Shown: piece after piece, positions 15,467 through 25,494 of the stretch
Layout of the letters: every line of letters starts with the position of its first letter
Numbering within the stretch: position 1 is the stretch's first letter
From: Agromyces seonyuensis
GTDB lineage: Bacteria; Actinomycetota; Actinomycetes; Actinomycetales; Microbacteriaceae
Direction of reading: 5' to 3'
Assembly (NCBI RefSeq): GCF_009789225.1
Contig: NZ_WSTA01000002.1
Span: forward strand, 1 to 64,000
DNA: 64,000 nt
Translations under genes and position numbers: made by a program
Notes under the pieces: model-generated
Seen by the model: the letters and a program-made list of their open reading frames with translations, nothing else
The model's database searches: none
What the model was told of the DNA's origin: nothing

Positions 15467-17200
15467 CTATTCGACGAGCTTGCCGACCGTCTCGACCTCG
15501 CGCATGAGCGCGGCGATCTCCTCGGGGATCTCCGGGATCGACTCGCGCGCGACTCCGTCGCGGGGCGACCACACGAGGTTCACCTGCAACGACTCGTCGA
15601 GGTCGGGGAAGTCGCTGCGGTTGTGGCAGCCGCGGGTCTCGCGGCGCTCGAGGGCGGCCTCGAGGGTCGCGCGGGCCGCGAGGGCCGCGGACTTCAGGTC
15701 GAACGCGTGGGCGAGGTCCTGGTAGCCGGCGATGTCGGGGTGCACGCCGATCTGCGTCATCCTCGCCTCGATCGCATCGAGTTCGGCGAGGCCGGCGCGC
15801 AGGCCCGCCTCGTCGCGCACGACGCCGGCGTGTTCGGTCATCGTGTTGCGGATGGCGCGCTGGAGGGCGCGCACGTTCTCGGCGCCGTCGGAGGCCAGGA
15901 GGCCGGCGATCTCGTCGCGCGCGGACTGCACGGCGGCGGCCGAGCGGGGCTGCGCGGGCAGGGCTCGGGAGTAGTCGATCGCCGCCTGTCCGACGATGCG
16001 GCCGAAGACGAGCAGTTCGATGAGGGAGTTGCCGCCGAGCCGGTTCGCACCGTGCAGGCCCGACGAGGCTTCGCCGATCGCGTAGAGGCCGGGCACGTCG
16101 GTGCCGTGGTCGTCGGGGCGCACCCAGACCCCGCCCATCGAGTAGTGCGCGGTCGGCGCGATCTCGATCGGCGCCGTCGTGATGTCGAGCATCTGGAGTT
16201 CGAGCATCGTCTGGTAGACGCGGGGGAGGCGCCGCATGATCGTCTCGCGCGGCAGGTGCGAGACATCCAGCCACACCCCGCCGTTCGGGGTGCCGCGCCC
16301 CTCCTTGATCTCGGTGTAGCAGGCCAGGGCGACGCGGTCGCGGGTCGAGAGCTCCAGGCGCTCGGGGTCGTACTTCGCCATGAAGCGCTCGCCGAGGGCG
16401 TTGGTGAGGATGCCGCCCTCGCCTCGGGCGGCCTCGCTGATGAGGGTGCCGGCGGCGTTCTCGGGCTCGATGATGCCCGACGGGTGGAACTGCACGAGCT
16501 CGGGGTCGCGCACCCGGCCGCCGGCCTCGACGGCGAGCCGCCACGAGTCGCCCGTGTTCTCGTCGCGCCGGGAGGACGTGCGCCGCCAGATGCGGTTGTG
16601 GCCGCCGGCGGCGAGGATGACCGCGTCGGCGTGGATGAGGTAGCCCGTGCCGTCGTCGAGGTCGAAGCCGTAGGCGCCGAAGACGGCGCCGTCCTCGTCG
16701 ACGAGGATGCGGGTGATGTAGACGGTGTCGAGGATCGGCACGTCGAGCTGCACGGCGCGGTTGACGAGGGTGCGCTGGATCTCGAGGCCGGTGTAGTCGC
16801 CGGCGAAGGCCGTGCGGCGGTAGGTGTGGGCGCCGAAGAAGCGTTGCGAGATGCGGCCGTCGTCCTCGCGGGCGAAGGGCATCCCGTAGCGCTCGAGGTC
16901 CTCGATGCCGCGGGCTGCGCCCTCGGTGACGGTCTGCACGACGCGCGGGTCGGCGAGCAGGTAGCTCTCCTTCAGGGTGTCGGCGGCATGCTGCTGCCAG
17001 CTGTCGTCGGCGTCCATGGTGGCGAGCGCGGCGTTGATGCCGCCGGCGGCGAGGGAGGTGTGGGCGTCGGACTTGGGGCGCTTGCCGACGGCGAGCACGT
17101 CGACCCCGGCCTCGGCGATCTCGATGGCGGCGCGCAGTCCCGAACCGCCGGTGCCGATGACGAGCACGGTGGTGGAGAGCTGGCGTTCAGAAGCGGTCAT
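15467..17200 (-). CDS. FAD-dependent fumarate reductase/succinate dehydrogenase-type flavoprotein
   Basis: This 577-residue flavoprotein has the N-terminal dinucleotide motif VIGTGGSGLRAAIE. It has an SLAAGGINAA segment near the covalent or tight FAD site, AAGGHNR, and the QFHPSG active-site region. The C-terminal helical domain includes ETRGCHNRSDFP, comparable to the SdhA/FrdA/NadB end. No iron-sulfur or membrane-anchor subunit is nearby, so it may act as a soluble fumarate-reductase-like or aspartate-oxidase-like enzyme. L-aspartate oxidase is less likely because nadA and nadC are absent. A LysR gene is divergent from it, with a shared 76-bp control region. Confidence 0.82.
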   Translation of the reverse strand: MTASERQLSTTVLVIGTGGSGLRAAIEIAEAGVDVLAVGKRPKSDAHTSLAAGGINAALATMDADDSWQQHAADTLKESYLLADPRVVQTVTEGAARGIEDLERYGMPFAREDDGRISQRFFGAHTYRRTAFAGDYTGLEIQRTLVNRAVQLDVPILDTVYITRILVDEDGAVFGAYGFDLDDGTGYLIHADAVILAAGGHNRIWRRTSSRRDENTGDSWRLAVEAGGRVRDPELVQFHPSGIIEPENAAGTLISEAARGEGGILTNALGERFMAKYDPERLELSTRDRVALACYTEIKEGRGTPNGGVWLDVSHLPRETIMRRLPRVYQTMLELQMLDITTAPIEIAPTAHYSMGGVWVRPDDHGTDVPGLYAIGEASSGLHGANRLGGNSLIELLVFGRIVGQAAIDYSRALPAQPRSAAAVQSARDEIAGLLASDGAENVRALQRAIRNTMTEHAGVVRDEAGLRAGLAELDAIEARMTQIGVHPDIAGYQDLAHAFDLKSAALAARATLEAALERRETRGCHNRSDFPDLDESLQVNLVWSPRDGVARESIPEIPEEIAALMREVETVGKLVE

Positions 17201-17232
17201 GCGGACACGCTAGGCAGCCGCGCCCCATTCCT

Positions 17233-17270
17233 CCAATGCATATTGATTGGGATGACCATGCGCCTAGAGT
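17233..17270 (+). promoter_or_regulatory. LysR-type dyad overlapping the lysR promoter
   Basis: CCAAT-N8-ATTGG (17233-17250) is an interrupted dyad of the T-N11-A class bound by LysR proteins. It overlaps the -35 TTGATT (17243-17248). A 16-bp spacer leads to the -10 TAGAGT (17265-17270). Transcription would begin near 17277, where an ATG sits, giving a leaderless lysR message. The site lies between two divergent genes, so it could autorepress lysR and activate the flavoprotein gene. Confidence 0.6.
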
Positions 17271-17276
17271 ATGGAT

Positions 17277-18221
17277 ATGAACCTCGAGCAGTTGCAGGCG
17301 TTCGTCGCGGTCGCGCAGACCGGCAACTTCACGCGAGCTGCCGACCGGCTCTATCTCGCGCAGCCGACCCTGAGCCGGCAGATCGGCGCCCTCGAGCAGG
17401 ACCTCGGTGCGCCGCTCTTCCATCGCGACCGCGCCGGCAGCACGCTGACGGAGGCCGGGGCGTCGCTCCTCCCGCTCGCACGGCGCATGCTCGCCGATGC
17501 GGACTCCGTGCGCCGCGAACTGGCCGAACTCGCGGGCCTCCAGCGCGGGCGGGTGCGCCTCGGCGCGACGCCGACCCTCTGCATCAGCCTCGTCGCCGAG
17601 GTGCTGAGCGCCTTCCATGTGAAGCATCCGGGGGTCGAGCTGCACCTGTCCGAGCACGGCTCGCGGCGCCTGCTCGACGAACTCGCGGCGGGCGAACTCG
17701 ACCTCGCGCTCGTCACGACCTCCGAGGCCACCGCGGCCCCGACGCGCTTCGAGGCGACCCCGCTGCTCGTCGAGGAGCTCGTCGTGATCTCCGCGGCATC
17801 CGCCCCGGCGATCGTCGACGCTGAGACCGTCGGGCTCTCGACAGTCGCCGGCCTGCCGCAGATCGTCTTCAGTTCGGCGTACGACCTCCGCGGGGCGACC
17901 GATGCCGCGTTCCGCGCCGCGGGCCTCACGTCCGACGTCGTGCTCGAGGGCGCCGAGATGGATGCCGTGCTGCGCTTCGTCGAACGCGGGCTCGGCGTCG
18001 CGATCGTGCCCGCGATGGTGCTCGTCGGCCGGCCGGGCCTGCGCGCGGCCCGTCTCGACGCCTCGGCGCTCGAGCGCACGATCAGCCTCGTGCGCCCGGC
18101 CGGCGTCGCGCCGACCGCCGCCGTCGGCGTCATGGCGCAGACGATCGCCGCGACCGCGATCGAGTTCGCCGCGCGGGCGGGCGCGACCATGCGGCTCGCG
18201 GCGCCCACCGGCCTGCGCTGA
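17277..18221 (+). CDS. LysR-family transcriptional regulator
   Basis: This 314-residue DNA-binding protein has the winged helix-turn-helix at residues 1-60 (MNLEQLQAFVAVAQTGNF, then AADRLYLAQPTLSRQI). A periplasmic-binding-protein-like effector domain follows. The ATG at 17277 is chosen over the one at 17271. A -10 element ends six bases before it and the product then begins at the usual LysR position. It is divergent from the fumarate-reductase-type flavoprotein, its likely target, and the dyad at 17233-17250 is its likely site. The effector is probably a small organic acid related to the enzyme's substrate, which is inference. Confidence 0.9.
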   Translation: MNLEQLQAFVAVAQTGNFTRAADRLYLAQPTLSRQIGALEQDLGAPLFHRDRAGSTLTEAGASLLPLARRMLADADSVRRELAELAGLQRGRVRLGATPTLCISLVAEVLSAFHVKHPGVELHLSEHGSRRLLDELAAGELDLALVTTSEATAAPTRFEATPLLVEELVVISAASAPAIVDAETVGLSTVAGLPQIVFSSAYDLRGATDAAFRAAGLTSDVVLEGAEMDAVLRFVERGLGVAIVPAMVLVGRPGLRAARLDASALERTISLVRPAGVAPTAAVGVMAQTIAATAIEFAARAGATMRLAAPTGLR

Positions 18222-19329: not shown

Positions 19330-19803
19330 TCAGGCGCTGAGCCGCTCCGCCGCCGCACGGAGCCGTGGGTCGTCGGCGTCGGCCCACCGGGCCAGCACCG
19401 CCGACGCCCGCGTCCGCGCGGCGCCGTCGAGCCCGTCGACGAGCGGCCGCACGACGTCGTCGACGAGCGGGCTGAACAGGGCGTCGACGGATGCCTCGCG
19501 GAGGAAGCCCTCGAGGCGCGTCAGATCGTTGTGTCCGAGCATCCGCACCCGCGACTGCAGGAGCACGATGGCGGCGAGCCGGCGCTCGAAGACGGGCACG
19601 GACCACAGCTCCGAGGCGAGGGCCGTGATCTCGTCGTGCCCGAGGCCGCGATAGCGGTTGCCGGCGTCGCGGATCGTGCCGCGGACGGCGCCCACAGAGG
19701 CCCCGTACGAGTCGAGCCCGAGGGCGTCGCGCACGTCCTCGGCGCGGTACTCGTCGCCCTCGTACCGCAGACGCTCGTCCACGAACTCGCCGGCCTCGCT
19801 CAT
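19330..19803 (-). CDS. Short AlkD-like HEAT-repeat protein (DNA alkylation repair family, C-terminally shortened)
   Basis: The 157 residues match the front part of the DNA alkylation repair (AlkD) family. GLGHDEITALASELW and the following FERRLAAIVLLQ are the helical-repeat signature. The family usually has about 220-240 residues. Here the protein stops just after DDPRLRAAAE, where AlkD continues into the second half of the solenoid. The convergent oxidoreductase gene ends 24 bp beyond. The start ATG at 19803 fits the conserved N-terminus; the longer upstream frame does not. It may be a natural short form or a decayed gene. Confidence 0.6.
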   Translation of the reverse strand: MSEAGEFVDERLRYEGDEYRAEDVRDALGLDSYGASVGAVRGTIRDAGNRYRGLGHDEITALASELWSVPVFERRLAAIVLLQSRVRMLGHNDLTRLEGFLREASVDALFSPLVDDVVRPLVDGLDGAARTRASAVLARWADADDPRLRAAAERLSA

Positions 19804-19906
19804 CCGTTCATTCTCCCCGCCGAGCGGTGCGGCCCGGCGACCGTGGACCGACGGCGGCTGTGGACACGTGCGCGGCCCGGCATGCCGTCCGTGGTTGAGT
19901 GACCGA

Positions 19907-21076
19907 ATGGGCACGACGGCGACCGCATACCTCACCGGCTTCGGCTCGTATCTCCCGGGGGACCCGGTCGACAACGACGGCATCGCGGCGCGGCTCGGGG
20001 GCACCGACGCGGTTTCGGAGCGCATCCGCCGGCGCATCCTCGACGCCAACGGCATCCGGCAGCGTCACTACGCCCTCGACGAGCACGGCGAGCCGACGGC
20101 GCTCAACGAAGAGCTCGCCGTCGCGGCGCTCACCGCTGCGCTCGAAGACCGCGGCATCGCCGCATCCGACCTCCGGATGCTCGCGTGCGCCACGACCATG
20201 GGCGACGTCCTCGTGCCGGGCTTCGCGTCGATGGTGCACGGCCGGCTCGGCGGCGGGCCGATGCAGCTGCTTTCGGCGTCGGGCGTGTGTGCATCGAGCC
20301 TCGCCGCCCTCGACGCTGCGGTCAGCAAGATCCGGCTGGGCGACCACCCGCGCGCGGCCGTCGTCGGTTCGGAGCTCGCGAGCCGCAGCCTCCGCCAGCG
20401 CCGCTACGACGGCATCCGGGCCGGCATGGACTCGCATTTCCTGCGCTGGATGCTCTCCGACGGCGCGGGCGCGGTGGTCGTCGAGTTCCAGCCCCACCCC
20501 GACCGGCCGTCGTTGCGGGTCGACTGGGTGCGCCACGTCTCGCTCGCCCACGAGCACGACGTGTGCATGCGCGCCGGTATGGACGGCATCGACCCGGCCG
20601 TCGGCGCCACCTGGCAGGACGTCGACCTCGCCGAGGCGGAGGCCAGGGGCATGTTCCTGCTCCGGCAGGACGTCGGCGTGCTCGACGACCTCGCGGGCGC
20701 CGGACTCGCGCAGTTCGAGGAACTCGTGGATCTCGGCCTCGTCGACGTCGGCCATCTCGACCACGTGCTCTGCCACTACAGCACCAACGCCTTCCGCGAC
20801 CTCGCGTTCGAGGGCCTCCGCAAGCGGCTGCCGACTCTCGAGGCCGATCGCTGGTACTCCAACCTCGAGACTCGCGGCAACACGGGCTCGGCGAGCATCT
20901 TCATCGCCCTCGAAGAGGCCTGGCGCACCGGCCGCTTCGCCCCCGGCGAGACGATCCTGCTCGCCGTGCCCGAGTCCGGCCGCTTCTCGTTCGCGTTCGC
21001 ACACCTCACCGTCGTCGCACCGCCCGCGCGTCTCGCGCCGTCCGCACCGCCCGCCGAACAAGGAGAACCGGTATGA
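19907..21076 (+). CDS. 3-oxoacyl-ACP synthase III-like ketosynthase
   Basis: This 389-residue thiolase-fold enzyme carries the full FabH-type catalytic triad. Cys128 is in SASGVCASSL, His290 in CHYSTN, and Asn325 in RGNTGSAS. MLSDGAGAVVVE is a further family block. It should form a C-C bond or transfer an acyl group from CoA or carrier protein. The mid-region (RAGMDSHFLRWML) differs from housekeeping FabH, and no fab genes are nearby, so a secondary pathway is inferred. Its TGA overlaps the ATG of the next gene by 4 bp. The 103-bp region before it, shared with the divergent AlkD-like gene, shows no clear ribosome binding site. Confidence 0.85.
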   Translation: MGTTATAYLTGFGSYLPGDPVDNDGIAARLGGTDAVSERIRRRILDANGIRQRHYALDEHGEPTALNEELAVAALTAALEDRGIAASDLRMLACATTMGDVLVPGFASMVHGRLGGGPMQLLSASGVCASSLAALDAAVSKIRLGDHPRAAVVGSELASRSLRQRRYDGIRAGMDSHFLRWMLSDGAGAVVVEFQPHPDRPSLRVDWVRHVSLAHEHDVCMRAGMDGIDPAVGATWQDVDLAEAEARGMFLLRQDVGVLDDLAGAGLAQFEELVDLGLVDVGHLDHVLCHYSTNAFRDLAFEGLRKRLPTLEADRWYSNLETRGNTGSASIFIALEEAWRTGRFAPGETILLAVPESGRFSFAFAHLTVVAPPARLAPSAPPAEQGEPV

Positions 21077-21774
21077 CCATCGACGCCACGACCACGGCCC
21101 CCGACACCGCCGGAGGCGGTGTCGCGATCCTCGCCGAGCGGCTCGCCGCCGTCTGGGCCGACCTCGATGCACGGCTCGACCGCGTGCCTGTTCTCCGCGC
21201 GCTCGCCGAGGGCACGGTGACCCTCGACGACTACCGGCGCCTGCTCTTCAACCTCCGTCAGCAGGTCGTCGACGGCTCGCCCTGGATCGCGCGCGCGGCC
21301 TCCAACTTCGACGTCGACCACTTCGACCTGCGCTCGGCCGCGATCCGACACGCGGAGGAGGAGCACCGCGACCACCTCATGCTCGAGCGCGACTACGTCG
21401 CCATCGGCGGTTCGCTCGCCGAACTGCGCACCGGCCGCAAAAACCTCGGCTCCGAGGCGCTGTCCGGCTACCTCTTCCACTACGCCGATCGGCCGAACCC
21501 CGCGGGCCTGCTCGGCGCGATGTTCGTCATCGAGGGGCTCGGCGCGAACAAGGCCGCCGGTTGGGCGAGCCGCTTCCAGGAGGTGCTCGGCCTGGCCGAC
21601 AACCAGGTGCACTTCATGCAGTACCACCAGGAGGCCGACGGGCAGCACACGGGCGCGATGGAGGCGATCCTCTACTCCGGGCTCATCGATGACGCGACTG
21701 CCGACGAGATCGTGCGCTGCGCCCAGGTCGTCGCCCGCCTCTACGTGCTGCAGCTGGAAGAACTGGATCGCTGA
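21073..21774 (+). CDS. Heme-oxygenase-fold, iron-containing redox enzyme (putative diiron oxidase)
   Basis: This 233-residue all-helical protein belongs to the TenA/heme-oxygenase-like superfamily. Residues match the metal ligands of heme-oxygenase-like diiron oxidases such as CADD and UndA. A Glu/His-rich helix (HAEEEHRDH, residues 93-101) is followed by Glu154 in VIEG. His185, Asp189 and His192 then follow in the H-x3-D-x2-H pattern. The spacings agree closely with CADD, except for the first Glu-His pair. Such enzymes cleave or desaturate C-C or C-N bonds with O2. Translation is coupled to the ketosynthase by an ATGA overlap and it carries an AGGAG site. The substrate is probably the ketosynthase product (inference). 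Confidence 0.75.
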   Translation: MTIDATTTAPDTAGGGVAILAERLAAVWADLDARLDRVPVLRALAEGTVTLDDYRRLLFNLRQQVVDGSPWIARAASNFDVDHFDLRSAAIRHAEEEHRDHLMLERDYVAIGGSLAELRTGRKNLGSEALSGYLFHYADRPNPAGLLGAMFVIEGLGANKAAGWASRFQEVLGLADNQVHFMQYHQEADGQHTGAMEAILYSGLIDDATADEIVRCAQVVARLYVLQLEELDR

Positions 21775-21775
21775 G

Positions 21776-22591
21776 GTGAACGACCCGGAGCTGTGGGAGG
21801 CGGTCGCCGCCGACCCGTCGATCCCCCTCGACCGTTCGCTGGTGCGGCAGATCGTCGACGACCAGCGCCGGCTCTCGCGGCGTTGGCTCTACCCCGTCGC
21901 CCGGGTCGTCTCGCGCGTGCTCGTCGCCGTGGTCTCGATCCTCAAGCGCGTGCTGCCGTTCCGGTGGATGCCGCTGGCGACGATGGATGCGCTCTGCGTC
22001 TGGTTCCTGCGCCGCTTCGTCTCCCCTGACGCCGTCGAGCTGCTCATCCGGCACTTCGTCGTCGAGACGAACCTCGTGAACTTCGTGCTGCGGAACACCC
22101 CGGCGACCCTCGCGCCGGTCACGCTCCGCCCGACGACGCTCGCCGGCCTCGGCGACCACGCCGTCGTCGAGCACGACGTCAACGTCTACGACGTGCTGAT
22201 CGCGCTCGACGGCGTCGACCCGGCGCCGCCCGTGCGATTCGACTTCGCCGAGCTCGACGTGCCGCCGCTCGACGCCGAACGCCGGCGCGTGCGGCTGCTG
22301 CGCCTCGACATCCAGACGGCGCTCTGCCTCATGAACATCCCGTTCTCGATCGCGCTCACCCTCGGGGAGTACCGCCGCGCGGTGCACTCGATGCGCTTCG
22401 ACGACTCGTTCCTCGAGATCCTCGCGCGCGTCACCGGCGACGACGGGTTCCGGCAGTGGAAGACCGGGATGCTGAGCCTGCGGATGGATTCCAACGTCGA
22501 CGTGCCCGAGACCGTCTACCGGCACGCGATCCTCTGCGAGTTCGCCCACGCACGGCTCGTGCGCTTCGCGGCGGACGCCTCTGCCGGTTGA
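21776..22591 (+). CDS. Unrecognised protein of the ketosynthase/diiron operon
   Basis: I do not recognise this 271-residue protein. It starts with GTG two bases after the stop of the diiron-oxidase gene, so it is certainly part of the operon. The first 90 residues are rich in Val, Leu, Trp and Arg, with hydrophobic stretches around residues 37-55 and 61-80 that may be membrane-attached helices. A conserved-looking VETNLVNFVLRN follows. The middle is acidic (VEHDVNVYDVLIALDGV). The C-terminal half is soluble and helical, with LRLDIQTALCLMNIP. No cofactor motif is visible. A role as partner or delivery protein for the upstream enzymes is only a guess from context. Confidence 0.8.
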   Translation: MNDPELWEAVAADPSIPLDRSLVRQIVDDQRRLSRRWLYPVARVVSRVLVAVVSILKRVLPFRWMPLATMDALCVWFLRRFVSPDAVELLIRHFVVETNLVNFVLRNTPATLAPVTLRPTTLAGLGDHAVVEHDVNVYDVLIALDGVDPAPPVRFDFAELDVPPLDAERRRVRLLRLDIQTALCLMNIPFSIALTLGEYRRAVHSMRFDDSFLEILARVTGDDGFRQWKTGMLSLRMDSNVDVPETVYRHAILCEFAHARLVRFAADASAG

Positions 22592-22708
22592 GCCGGTCTC
22601 GCGATCGCTCTCGGGAGACGGAGGCCGTTATCTCCCCGTCATCCGCGCCTGTCACACTGCTCTCCGACATCCGTCGTAAATCTCGCGATCGAGCAGGAGC
22701 ATCCCCGA

Positions 22709-23521
22709 ATGGACATCAACGGCAAGGTCTTCGTCGTCACCGGCGCCGGCAACGGCATGGGGCGCGAGGTCGCCCTGCAGCTGCTCGGCGCGGGAGCCCG
22801 CGTCGCCGGCGTCGACCTCAGCGAGGCGGGGCTCGCCGAGACGGCGGAGCTCGCGGGCGCGGCGGAGAACTTCTCGCTGCACCCGACCAACATCACCGAC
22901 CGCGAGGCCGTCGCAGCCCTCCCGGCGGCCGTGATCGCCGCCCACGGTCAGGTCGACGGCCTGCTCAACATCGCGGGCGTCATCCAGAAGTTCGTCAAGG
23001 TGCTCGACCTCCCGTTCGAGGAGGTCGACAAGGTCATGGCCGTCAACTTCGGCGGCACGATGAACACGGTCAAGGCGTTCCTGCCCGTGCTGCTCGAGCG
23101 GCCGACGGCCGCCATCCTCAACGTCGCGAGCATGGGCGCCTACGCGCCGGTCCCCGGTCAGGCCGTCTACGGCGCCTCCAAGGCGGCCGTCGTGCTGCTC
23201 ACCGAGGCGCTCTACGCCGAGCTGCTCGGCTCGAACGTGCAGATCTCCGTCGTCTACCCCGGCGCGATCGCGACGAACATCGCCAAGAACTCGGGCGTCT
23301 CGATCGGCGGGGCCGAGCAGGGCGCCGAGGCCGCGAAGGACTCCAAGCACAAGACCACCTCCGTCGACGTCGCCGGCCGCGTCATCGTCGACACCCTGGT
23401 CAAGGGCAAGTTCCGGGCGACCATCGGCTCGGACGCGACCATGATGGACCGCATCGCCCGCCTCAGCCCGAAGCGCGCGACCGAGCTCATCGCCAAGCAG
23501 ATGGGCGACCTGCTCGGCTGA
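22709..23521 (+). CDS. Short-chain dehydrogenase/reductase
   Basis: This 270-residue classical SDR has the cofactor motif TGAGNGMG at residues 11-18. It also has NIAGV in place of NNAG, a catalytic Ser in NVASMGAYAP, and Tyr-x-x-x-Lys in YGASK. The C-terminal region includes DVAGRVIVDTLVKGKF, typical of SDRs acting on bulky or lipid-like substrates. It lies 117 bp after the unknown gene on the same strand, so co-transcription with the ketosynthase operon is possible. However, that gap contains a CACACT -10-like element, so it may have its own promoter. It is followed by a strong hairpin. Confidence 0.88.
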   Translation: MDINGKVFVVTGAGNGMGREVALQLLGAGARVAGVDLSEAGLAETAELAGAAENFSLHPTNITDREAVAALPAAVIAAHGQVDGLLNIAGVIQKFVKVLDLPFEEVDKVMAVNFGGTMNTVKAFLPVLLERPTAAILNVASMGAYAPVPGQAVYGASKAAVVLLTEALYAELLGSNVQISVVYPGAIATNIAKNSGVSIGGAEQGAEAAKDSKHKTTSVDVAGRVIVDTLVKGKFRATIGSDATMMDRIARLSPKRATELIAKQMGDLLG

Positions 23522-23534
23522 TCGGCGACGCACG

Positions 23535-23576
23535 ACGGGCGGGTCGGATGCCTCGAGGCATCCGGCCCGCTCGTCG
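23535..23576. terminator. Hairpin terminator after the SDR gene
   Basis: A palindrome CGGATGCC-TCGA-GGCATCCG is extended outward by one G-T pair and GCGGG/CCCGC. It lies between the convergent SDR and DUF2255 genes, and again contains the GGATGC/GCATCC core. Confidence 0.8.
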
Positions 23577-23608
23577 CCGTTCCCCGTCCCCGAGCGCGCG
23601 ACGGCGGC

Positions 23609-23974
23609 TCAGGCCGGGTCGACCCGGAGCGTCGTCGCGACGGCGCCGGGAGCGATCATCGTGCGGCTCGAACTCGTGTCCCCGTACTTGGCGAAGTACG
23701 CGGCGTCGACCGCCTCGTCCGCCGAGGAGTCGGAAGCGTAGACGACGTCGCGCGGGGTGCCGTCCCACTCGAGCGCGCCGCCCGTCCCGGCGAGGACGCC
23801 GCGGTACCACCCGCCCTCGGCTCCCCGCGCGGAGCGCACGTAGACCGCGCCGTCGACGACCACGTCCCAGATCGTGACGAGGGGCCGGAGCGTGCCGTCG
23901 GCGCGTCGGCCCGCCACGCGCACCTCGCGTGCGCGTTCGAGGGCGCTCAGGTCGTCGGGATTCCAGGTGCTCAT
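23609..23974 (-). CDS. DUF2255 family protein
   Basis: This 121-residue protein matches the DUF2255 pattern. WNPDDLSALERAREV is followed by TLRPLVTIWDVVVDGAVYVRS, then a glycine-rich GAEGGWYRGVL and a C-terminal Tyr-rich segment. The fold resembles small split-barrel proteins related to flavin-binding nitroreductase-like families, but no function is established. Start at the ATG at 23974 is supported by a GGAGGGG ribosome binding site; an extended upstream frame is not family-like. It is transcribed towards the SDR terminator, and no partner gene is evident. Confidence 0.8.
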   Translation of the reverse strand: MSTWNPDDLSALERAREVRVAGRRADGTLRPLVTIWDVVVDGAVYVRSARGAEGGWYRGVLAGTGGALEWDGTPRDVVYASDSSADEAVDAAYFAKYGDTSSSRTMIAPGAVATTLRVDPA

Positions 23975-24112
23975 CGTGCGTTCCCCTCCGACGGCGGGCG
24001 TTCGCCGCCGCCGGTATCCAGCATGCGTCCGCTGGGTGATTCGAGCCAGGGTCTGCGCGTACCCCCTCGCAGGCCGTGCGCCGACTGCGCCGAAGCTCTC
24101 ATCTTCCGGCTC

Positions 24113-24141
24113 TTGTGAATCGCGGTTCACATCCGTAAGTT
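24113..24141 (+). promoter_or_regulatory. Promoter with embedded palindrome TGTGAATCGCGGTTCACA for the MpaB-like oxygenase
   Basis: TTGTGA (24113-24118) and TAAGTT (24136-24141) are 17 bp apart. A perfect TGTGAA-N6-TTCACA dyad (24114-24131) covers the -35 and most of the spacer. A further TTCACA half-site follows at 24150-24155. This suggests tight repression of the downstream oxygenase gene. The spacing between TGTGA and TCACA is 8 bp, not the 6 bp of a CRP/GlxR site, so the regulator is unknown. Confidence 0.6.
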
Positions 24142-24240
24142 AACGAGCATTCACATCAGTGCGGATGGGACGCGGTGCTTTCGCGGCGGCGACGACGCCG
24201 GCGTGACGACGCCCCGCCGCTTCGAAGAGCAGGAGGCAAC

Positions 24241-25494
24241 GTGGCCGACTTGAATCGACGTTCCGTCTTGACCCTGGGGGCCGTCTTCGGCCTCGGCGGG
24301 GCCATCGTACCCGGGGCCGCCCAGGCCGCGACCCGGGAGTGGACCTGGTCGGCCGCCAATTCCGTCGTCCCCACCGCCCTCGGCGGCGGGTCGACCGTCG
24401 ACCCCGCCTGGGTGTGGGACGAGCCGATCGACACGATCATCGCCCAGGCCATCCAGCGCGGCGAGACGGCCCAGATCAACGCGGCGCTGCTGCCGTGGGT
24501 GCACCACTACGACCCCGTGCCGAGCGCGGGCCTGCCCGCCGACCTCGCCGCGTGGCTGCAGGAGAGCGTCCAGATGCCGGCCTGGGCCGACATGACGAAG
24601 CTCCGCCGCGCCGCCGACTTCAACCGTCGCAAGGACACCTACCTCTTCATGCTCTACGGCGTCGGCGGCGGCATCATGTCGACGGTCATCCCTCGGGAGG
24701 CGAAGTCGGTCTACTGGTCCAAGGGCGGTGCCGACATGCAGGACCGCGCCGCGAAGACCTTCTCGTTCGGCTACGACCTCTCCGACATCGACGCGTTCGA
24801 GAACACGGGCGAGTTCCGCGTCACCTCGAACAAGACGCGCATGACGCACGCGGCCGTGCGCCACCTGCTGCCGCAGTCGCCCCACTGGCTCGCCGTCCGC
24901 GACGAGTCGATCCCGATCTCCAACCAGGACATCCTCGTCACCTTCCACTCCACCGGCACGTTCGCGTACCAGAAGCTCAAGGAATGGCGCATCCCGATGT
25001 CGACCCGCGACGAGGAGGCGTTCCTCCACTCGTGGCAGGTCGCGCTGCACTTCCTCGGGGTGCGCGACGAGTACATCCCGGCGACGTGGAAGGCGGCGAC
25101 CCAGCAGGCCTCCGAGATCCTCTACCCCCGGCTCACCTGGACGCAGGAGGGGCAGTACCTCGCCGAGGTGCTGCTCGGCCTCGTCGCCCAGGTCGACCGC
25201 GGCCTCACCCGCGGGTTCCTCAACGAGTTCGTGCGCTACCTCCTCGGCAACGAGATCGGCGACTGGCTGGGGCTGCCGCGCGACTACGTCTCCGCCGCGA
25301 CGATCCGCGTCGGCTGGCCGGCGTTCATCCTGTTCCGCGAGGGGTTGAACCCGATCATGCCGGCGAACTTCTACCTGTTCGACCAACTCGTCCGCGCCAT
25401 CGCGATGGCGTTCCTCAACCGGGCGACCTCGCCCACGACGACGCCCATCGTGATCCCCGACATGAACCGGCCCGACCCCGGCTACAACGGCTGA
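24241..25494 (+). CDS. Tat-exported oxygenase of the MpaB / latex-clearing-protein (DUF2236) family
   Basis: This 417-residue protein starts at a GTG with an AGGAGG site. The N-terminus NRRSVLTLG plus a hydrophobic stretch ending AQA is a twin-arginine signal, so the enzyme is folded before export. The mature part matches the DUF2236/MpaB family, which includes heme-b rubber oxygenase Lcp. The conserved block TRMTHAAVRHLLPQSP and a later His in LVTFHSTG are candidate heme-environment residues. Lcp cleaves polyisoprene double bonds with O2; the substrate here is not known. It has its own palindrome-containing promoter and ends at a strong hairpin. Confidence 0.8.
   Translation: MADLNRRSVLTLGAVFGLGGAIVPGAAQAATREWTWSAANSVVPTALGGGSTVDPAWVWDEPIDTIIAQAIQRGETAQINAALLPWVHHYDPVPSAGLPADLAAWLQESVQMPAWADMTKLRRAADFNRRKDTYLFMLYGVGGGIMSTVIPREAKSVYWSKGGADMQDRAAKTFSFGYDLSDIDAFENTGEFRVTSNKTRMTHAAVRHLLPQSPHWLAVRDESIPISNQDILVTFHSTGTFAYQKLKEWRIPMSTRDEEAFLHSWQVALHFLGVRDEYIPATWKAATQQASEILYPRLTWTQEGQYLAEVLLGLVAQVDRGLTRGFLNEFVRYLLGNEIGDWLGLPRDYVSAATIRVGWPAFILFREGLNPIMPANFYLFDQLVRAIAMAFLNRATSPTTTPIVIPDMNRPDPGYNG

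Follow-up and report, generated by a model that had tools for sequence, protein, structure and literature searches.

The three-gene locus

The window is a 64,000-nucleotide stretch of Agromyces seonyuensis DNA, and three consecutive genes within it (Table 1) encode a StlD/DarB-type ketosynthase (KS), a candidate heme-oxygenase-like dimetal oxidase (HDO), and a protein of the DUF6999 family. The KS gene opens with ATG and its end overlaps the start of the oxidase gene in an ATGA, while the DUF6999 gene has a GTG start one base past the TGA of the oxidase gene. A sequence-only reading had described a compact operon at this position, and re-examination of the three open reading frames bears out its coordinates, overlaps, and residues. 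The three genes are one operon and a genuine module, a conserved cassette that travels as a unit. A promoter and terminator scan of positions 19600-22800 found none.

Table 1. Genes of the trio in the Agromyces seonyuensis window
Gene product	Positions	Strand	Identified by
StlD/DarB-type ketosynthase (KS), 389 aa	19907..21076	+	NCBIfam NF005293, resorcinol_DarB, StlD 5gk0 match
Heme-oxygenase-like dimetal oxidase candidate, 233 aa	21073..21774	+	PF14518, AF2 model, Foldseek
DUF6999 protein, 271 aa	21776..22591	+	Pfam PF22523, E 2e-86

Downstream of the trio, positions 22709-25494 hold an SDR and a protein with an MpaB/rubber-oxygenase domain (PF09995), which are not conserved with it. Positions 15467-18221 hold genes for a FAD flavoprotein and a divergently oriented LysR regulator. 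Several Agromyces genomes have this pair within a few kb of the trio, but its side and distance vary among them, as would fit local rearrangement or a loose partner.

Conservation and gene fusion

The order and orientation KS, oxidase, DUF6999 is kept in 36 of 36 full loci in Actinobacteria, which are all the full loci found with the DUF6999 protein as query. These represent eight genera: Agromyces, Microbacterium, Leifsonia, Schumannella, Demequina, Cellulomonas, Glycomyces, and Phytomonospora. Across 100 relatives (a count that takes in the window's own genome as one row) inheritance is all-or-none, with all three genes in the same 19 genomes and none in the remaining 81. The KS and oxidase are joined in one stop-free open reading frame of about 600-640 codons in every one of the 19 Glycomyces and Phytomonospora loci. 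Outside Actinobacteria the trio is known from one plasmid, the 801-kb plasmid of Pseudoalteromonas sp. THAF3, which has the same gene order and copies with about 42% (KS), 43% (oxidase), and 26% (DUF6999) identity. The sequence-only reading had allowed that the trio might be confined to one strain; instead, its order is widely conserved. Adjacency, all-or-none inheritance, fusion, and an order common to two phyla therefore point to a joint function of the three proteins, which is close to certain. Chance neighbours are ruled out by the co-occurrence and the KS-oxidase fusion.

In a neighbourhood comparison across genera, the trio is the sole common unit and no flanking gene is present in all loci. 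DNA homology with most relatives runs from the KS start codon to a point inside the DUF6999 gene. One upstream gene is common to the Phytomonospora and Glycomyces loci, and some Agromyces also have neighbouring genes in common, in rearranged positions. The flanking SDR, quinone-oxidoreductase-like, and LysR/flavoprotein genes were considered as parts of the module and rejected, since they are not conserved across genera. Directly upstream of the Pseudoalteromonas trio (L062:12642-13199) is a gene for a 185-aa His/Glu-rich membrane protein with no Pfam or NCBIfam match; it was set aside as a fourth part because it is absent from the Actinobacteria loci. Besides its complete trio (L017), Cellulomonas sp. 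KH9 has an incomplete DUF6999 reading on another contig (L039:8001-8627), with neither KS nor oxidase.

The ketosynthase

The first protein had been called ketosynthase III-like, but a more specific name is appropriate. Its best NCBIfam models are NF005293 (StlD/DarB), with 320 bits and an E of 1.5e-95, and resorcinol_DarB, with 285 bits, whereas the next models, including every FabH model, give 96 bits or less. Generic FabH identity is rejected on this difference, and the protein is better described as a StlD/DarB-type ring-forming KS. Both scores, obtained by profile search, are under the curated cut-offs (450 for NF005293 and 550 for resorcinol_DarB). On these matches, the KS is placed within the StlD/DarB ring-forming superfamily and outside the curated family, and because its scores are under both cut-offs its substrates may differ.

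The best PDB match is StlD of Photorhabdus (5gk0), a stilbene/cyclohexanedione KS, with an E of 1.2e-64 and an alignment over residues 6-370. The two proteins have the motifs FLRWMLSDGAGA, PES-x-RF, and NGI--RHYALD in common, the first two of which are missing from the same genome's own FabH-like protein. They also have the same catalytic triad, which the sequence-only reading had placed at Cys128-His290-Asn325 and which does not vary in any of 38 homologues, that of Pseudoalteromonas among them. Despite this likeness, the trio KS is 36% identical to StlD (with the StlD sequence taken from the PDB-match alignment), does not have the StlD insertion around residues 166-180, and has other partner genes.

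The profile matches also bear on the product. The sequence-only reading had proposed a ketone or alkene, for which the KS would condense chains without ring closure and the oxidase would cleave or decarboxylate the beta-keto acid. Beta-keto acids are known from OleA-type KSs (PMC4578411) and UndA yields alkenes from fatty acids (PMC13108848); however, the KS fits StlD/DarB far better than FabH or other KSIII families, and no OleA- or PpyS-named model is among its profile matches. A ketone or alkene product is very unlikely on this evidence. Since the KS is of the StlD/DarB type, a cyclised and aromatised product is the more likely one.

Lone StlD/DarB-type KS genes are also found on Prevotella and Bacteroides plasmids (L065:7989-9125 and L066:7989-9131), beside a TetR or helix-turn-helix regulator and with no DarA or oxidase gene annotated alongside.

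The oxidase and its putative metal site

The second protein matches Pfam PF14518 (“iron-containing redox enzyme”) with 41.6 bits (cut-off 28.9, E 1.5e-10), while the Pseudoalteromonas copy is under this cut-off. An AlphaFold (AF2) model built with 31 homologues from the fetched loci has a pLDDT of 92.1, and Foldseek matches it to Sden_3740 (3dde; TM 0.82-0.84), CADD (0.73-0.79), and UndA (about 0.7), as well as to TenA-type proteins. The oxidase is thus predicted to fold as an HDO, in support of the dimetal oxidase candidate of the sequence-only reading. Of the two nearest solved folds, CADD is a self-sacrificing pABA synthase and 3dde has no assigned function.

About 85% of HDO groups have the six-ligand motif E-H-X-H-D/E-H (PMC11363339). 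The X-H-D-H half of this motif is present in the trio oxidase as E154, H185, D189, and H192, which are invariant in 38 of 38 homologues including that of Pseudoalteromonas; further invariant residues are H93, E96, E97, H98, and D100. The first half-site is not an E-H pair but H93-x3-E97-x2-D100, with the three residues about one helical turn apart and again invariant in 38 of 38 sequences. The CADD/UndA-type metal spacing claimed earlier therefore stands for E154 and H-x3-D-x2-H, which are canonical, and does not stand for the first half-site. The same helix reads E-x2-H in 3dde and in plasmid-borne relatives from Salinivibrio, Pantoea, Variovorax, and Citrobacter, and the first half-site of CADD is also unlike that of the trio oxidase. 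Position 100 is Asp in all 38 trio oxidases but His in all four of the nearest plasmid-borne relatives and in 3dde. Either D100 replaces the histidine in a 2H/4C ligand set, or H93, one turn earlier, makes good the loss. UndA, a fatty-acid oxidative decarboxylase and HDO, resembles the trio oxidase in its heme-oxygenase fold and in its Glu and H-x3-D-x2-H half. The two are 13-15% identical, and the trio oxidase differs in its KS partner and in having H93-x3-E97-x2-D100 in place of the E-x2-H first half-site of UndA.

From the fold match and their placement on corresponding helices, the candidate metal residues are likely to cluster. The Asp at position 100, where the nearest relatives and 3dde have His, could instead indicate an oxidase without a dimetal centre, which would bind a single metal like FlcD, use a different metal, or have a role in binding substrate. 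FlcD, which has lost ligands, is indeed a mononuclear enzyme (PMC11363339). However, the losses in FlcD are in the alpha-3 helix, whereas the trio oxidase keeps all four residues of its canonical half invariant, and the invariant H93, one turn ahead of E97, could give the missing nitrogen ligand. The absence of a dimetal centre is therefore quite unlikely.

The DUF6999 protein

The third protein, previously described as unknown, belongs to a named family, with 289.9 bits against Pfam PF22523 (DUF6999; gathering score 27). Its AF2 model is helical with a pLDDT of 82.6. Searches of the PDB and BFVD with this fold gave noise only (E above 0.9), and sequence profiles gave no match in the PDB. The residues H93, E97, E132, H133, D134, E168, E198, H250, and E255, along with several Arg, Lys, and Asn, are invariant in 38 sequences, and this large number of invariant residues suggests an enzyme. 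There is one hydrophobic segment, at residues 38-56, and the protein is perhaps membrane-associated. DUF6999 is present in the control genome Caulobacter vibrioides; scans of viral contigs found neither DUF6999 nor relatives of the oxidase.

DarA-like proteins in other ketosynthase contexts

DarB-type KSs make 4-carboxy-2,5-dialkylcyclohexane-1,3-diones, according to PMC5515871, which cites Fuchs 2013, and in a characterised cluster darB adjoins darA, the gene for a “DAR-aromatase” (PMC3949708). The trio resembles this dialkylresorcinol pathway, known for flexirubin, arcuflavin, and hexyl-propylresorcinol, in having a StlD/DarB-type KS, which would draw on two fatty-acid-derived thioesters, and an adjacent gene for the second step. 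DarA converts the carboxy-cyclohexanediones to resorcinols. The trio differs in having no DarA-like protein; the place is taken by an HDO-fold oxidase, in some loci fused to the KS, and DUF6999 is present as well, with neither ACP nor aryl-polyene genes close by.

Two other actinobacterial DarB-type KSs, from a Streptomyces plasmid and from genome G245, are each directly followed by a protein with the flavodoxin-like start YSQ[ST]GQL, and these two proteins are 47% identical. From their position and start motif, we take them to be DarA-like. Near these KSs are ACPs, PKS, and aromatic-ring hydroxylases (FAD_binding_3 + Rng_hyd_C), and in G245 there is also a gene for an O-methyltransferase. The protein with this start, DarA-like by position and start motif only, is absent from 20 of 20 trio genomes in a search that detected it in the positive control G245. 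In these genomes, the place directly after the KS is taken by the oxidase.

The hydroxylases and O-methyltransferase show that ring oxidation is common in such contexts, and the oxidase could accordingly be a hydroxylase. The KS would form the ring, as a cyclohexanedione or resorcinol, and the oxidase would hydroxylate it to give a hydroxy-resorcinol or quinone-type redox lipid, with aromatisation being spontaneous or due to a gene elsewhere. The non-canonical first half-site may support other oxygen chemistry of this kind. However, the 20 trio genomes have no DarA-like aromatase, the KS-oxidase fusion suggests direct action of the oxidase on what the KS makes, and ring hydroxylation is not among the reactions listed for characterised HDOs, which are N-oxygenation, C-C cleavage, desaturation, and rearrangement (PMC13108848). 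Taken together, these points make hydroxylation unlikely.

Proposed pathway

The reading that we prefer, by analogy with the DarB/DarA pathway and with a probability of roughly 0.48, is that the three genes form a self-contained set for the biosynthesis of a small ring lipid, in which the oxidase aromatises the KS product to a dialkylresorcinol in the stead of DarA. The product is probably a small aromatic lipid, either a dialkylresorcinol or a close relative. Judging from its family, the KS would draw two thioesters from ordinary fatty-acid metabolism, one beta-ketoacyl and one alpha,beta-unsaturated acyl, and join them by Claisen and Michael condensation into a 4-carboxy-2,5-dialkylcyclohexane-1,3-dione. 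The oxidase, either a neighbour of the KS or joined to it, would bind the ring carboxylate through iron. In UndA, the fatty-acid carboxylate ligates Fe1, the C3-H is close to the cluster, and an alkene forms with loss of CO2 (PMC13108848). A similar oxidative decarboxylation with O2 would remove the C5 hydrogen, beta to the carboxylate, along with CO2. This hydrogen of the KS product corresponds to the C3-H of the UndA substrate, and its removal would create a C4=C5 bond; tautomerisation would then complete the aromatic ring, so that 2,5-dialkylresorcinol arises in one step. In this scheme the aromatising role of DarA falls to the oxidase. DUF6999, with its possible membrane association, would act next on the product, in tailoring, hand-over, or protection, and this is the weakest step.

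The position of the oxidase in the place of a DarA-like protein, fused to the KS in 19 loci, speaks for an aromatase. Against it, HDOs run many other reactions, the unusual first half-site may alter the chemistry or metal of the oxidase, and DUF6999 has no place in a simple route of KS and aromatase. A wider claim is more tentative and somewhat doubtful: that an HDO with a non-canonical H-x3-E-x2-D first half-site, coupled and in places fused to a KS, aromatises a DarB-type carboxy-cyclohexanedione by O2-dependent oxidative decarboxylation. HDOs would then have a new reaction class, the DarA step would have been solved a second time by independent evolution, and DUF6999 would be a third enzyme, with a new fold.

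Relation to known pathways

DarB-type ring chemistry is already known; what would be new is DarB-type ring biosynthesis with an HDO as the second enzyme. DarB-type KSs are reportedly surveyed in Fuchs 2013. A search of open-licence papers found no paper on DUF6999, no description of a set of KS, HDO, and DUF6999, and no characterised pathway that matches it, in line with the sequence-only reading, which knew of no described pathway with these three genes. If the proposed pathway is true, then dialkylresorcinol-type lipids, which include signals, radical scavengers, and antibiotics, extend to many Actinobacteria without a DarA-like gene, and the aromatase has undergone non-orthologous replacement by an iron oxidase.

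Of more than 10,000 HDOs, functions have been assigned to only about a dozen, and most of these act on amino and fatty acids (PMC13108848). The trio ties an HDO, in some loci by fusion, to a KS whose chemistry can be predicted, and so suggests possible substrates for DUF6999 and for an uncharacterised clade of HDOs; at three genes and 2.7 kb it is also easy to express and test. A separate operon is conserved on the Salinivibrio, Pantoea, Variovorax, and Citrobacter plasmids (L067, L068, L069, and L070), where an HDO with the E-x2-H half-site is found with an AMP-binding enzyme, an SDR, and a “thermostable hemolysin,” and it looks like another uncharacterised HDO pathway.
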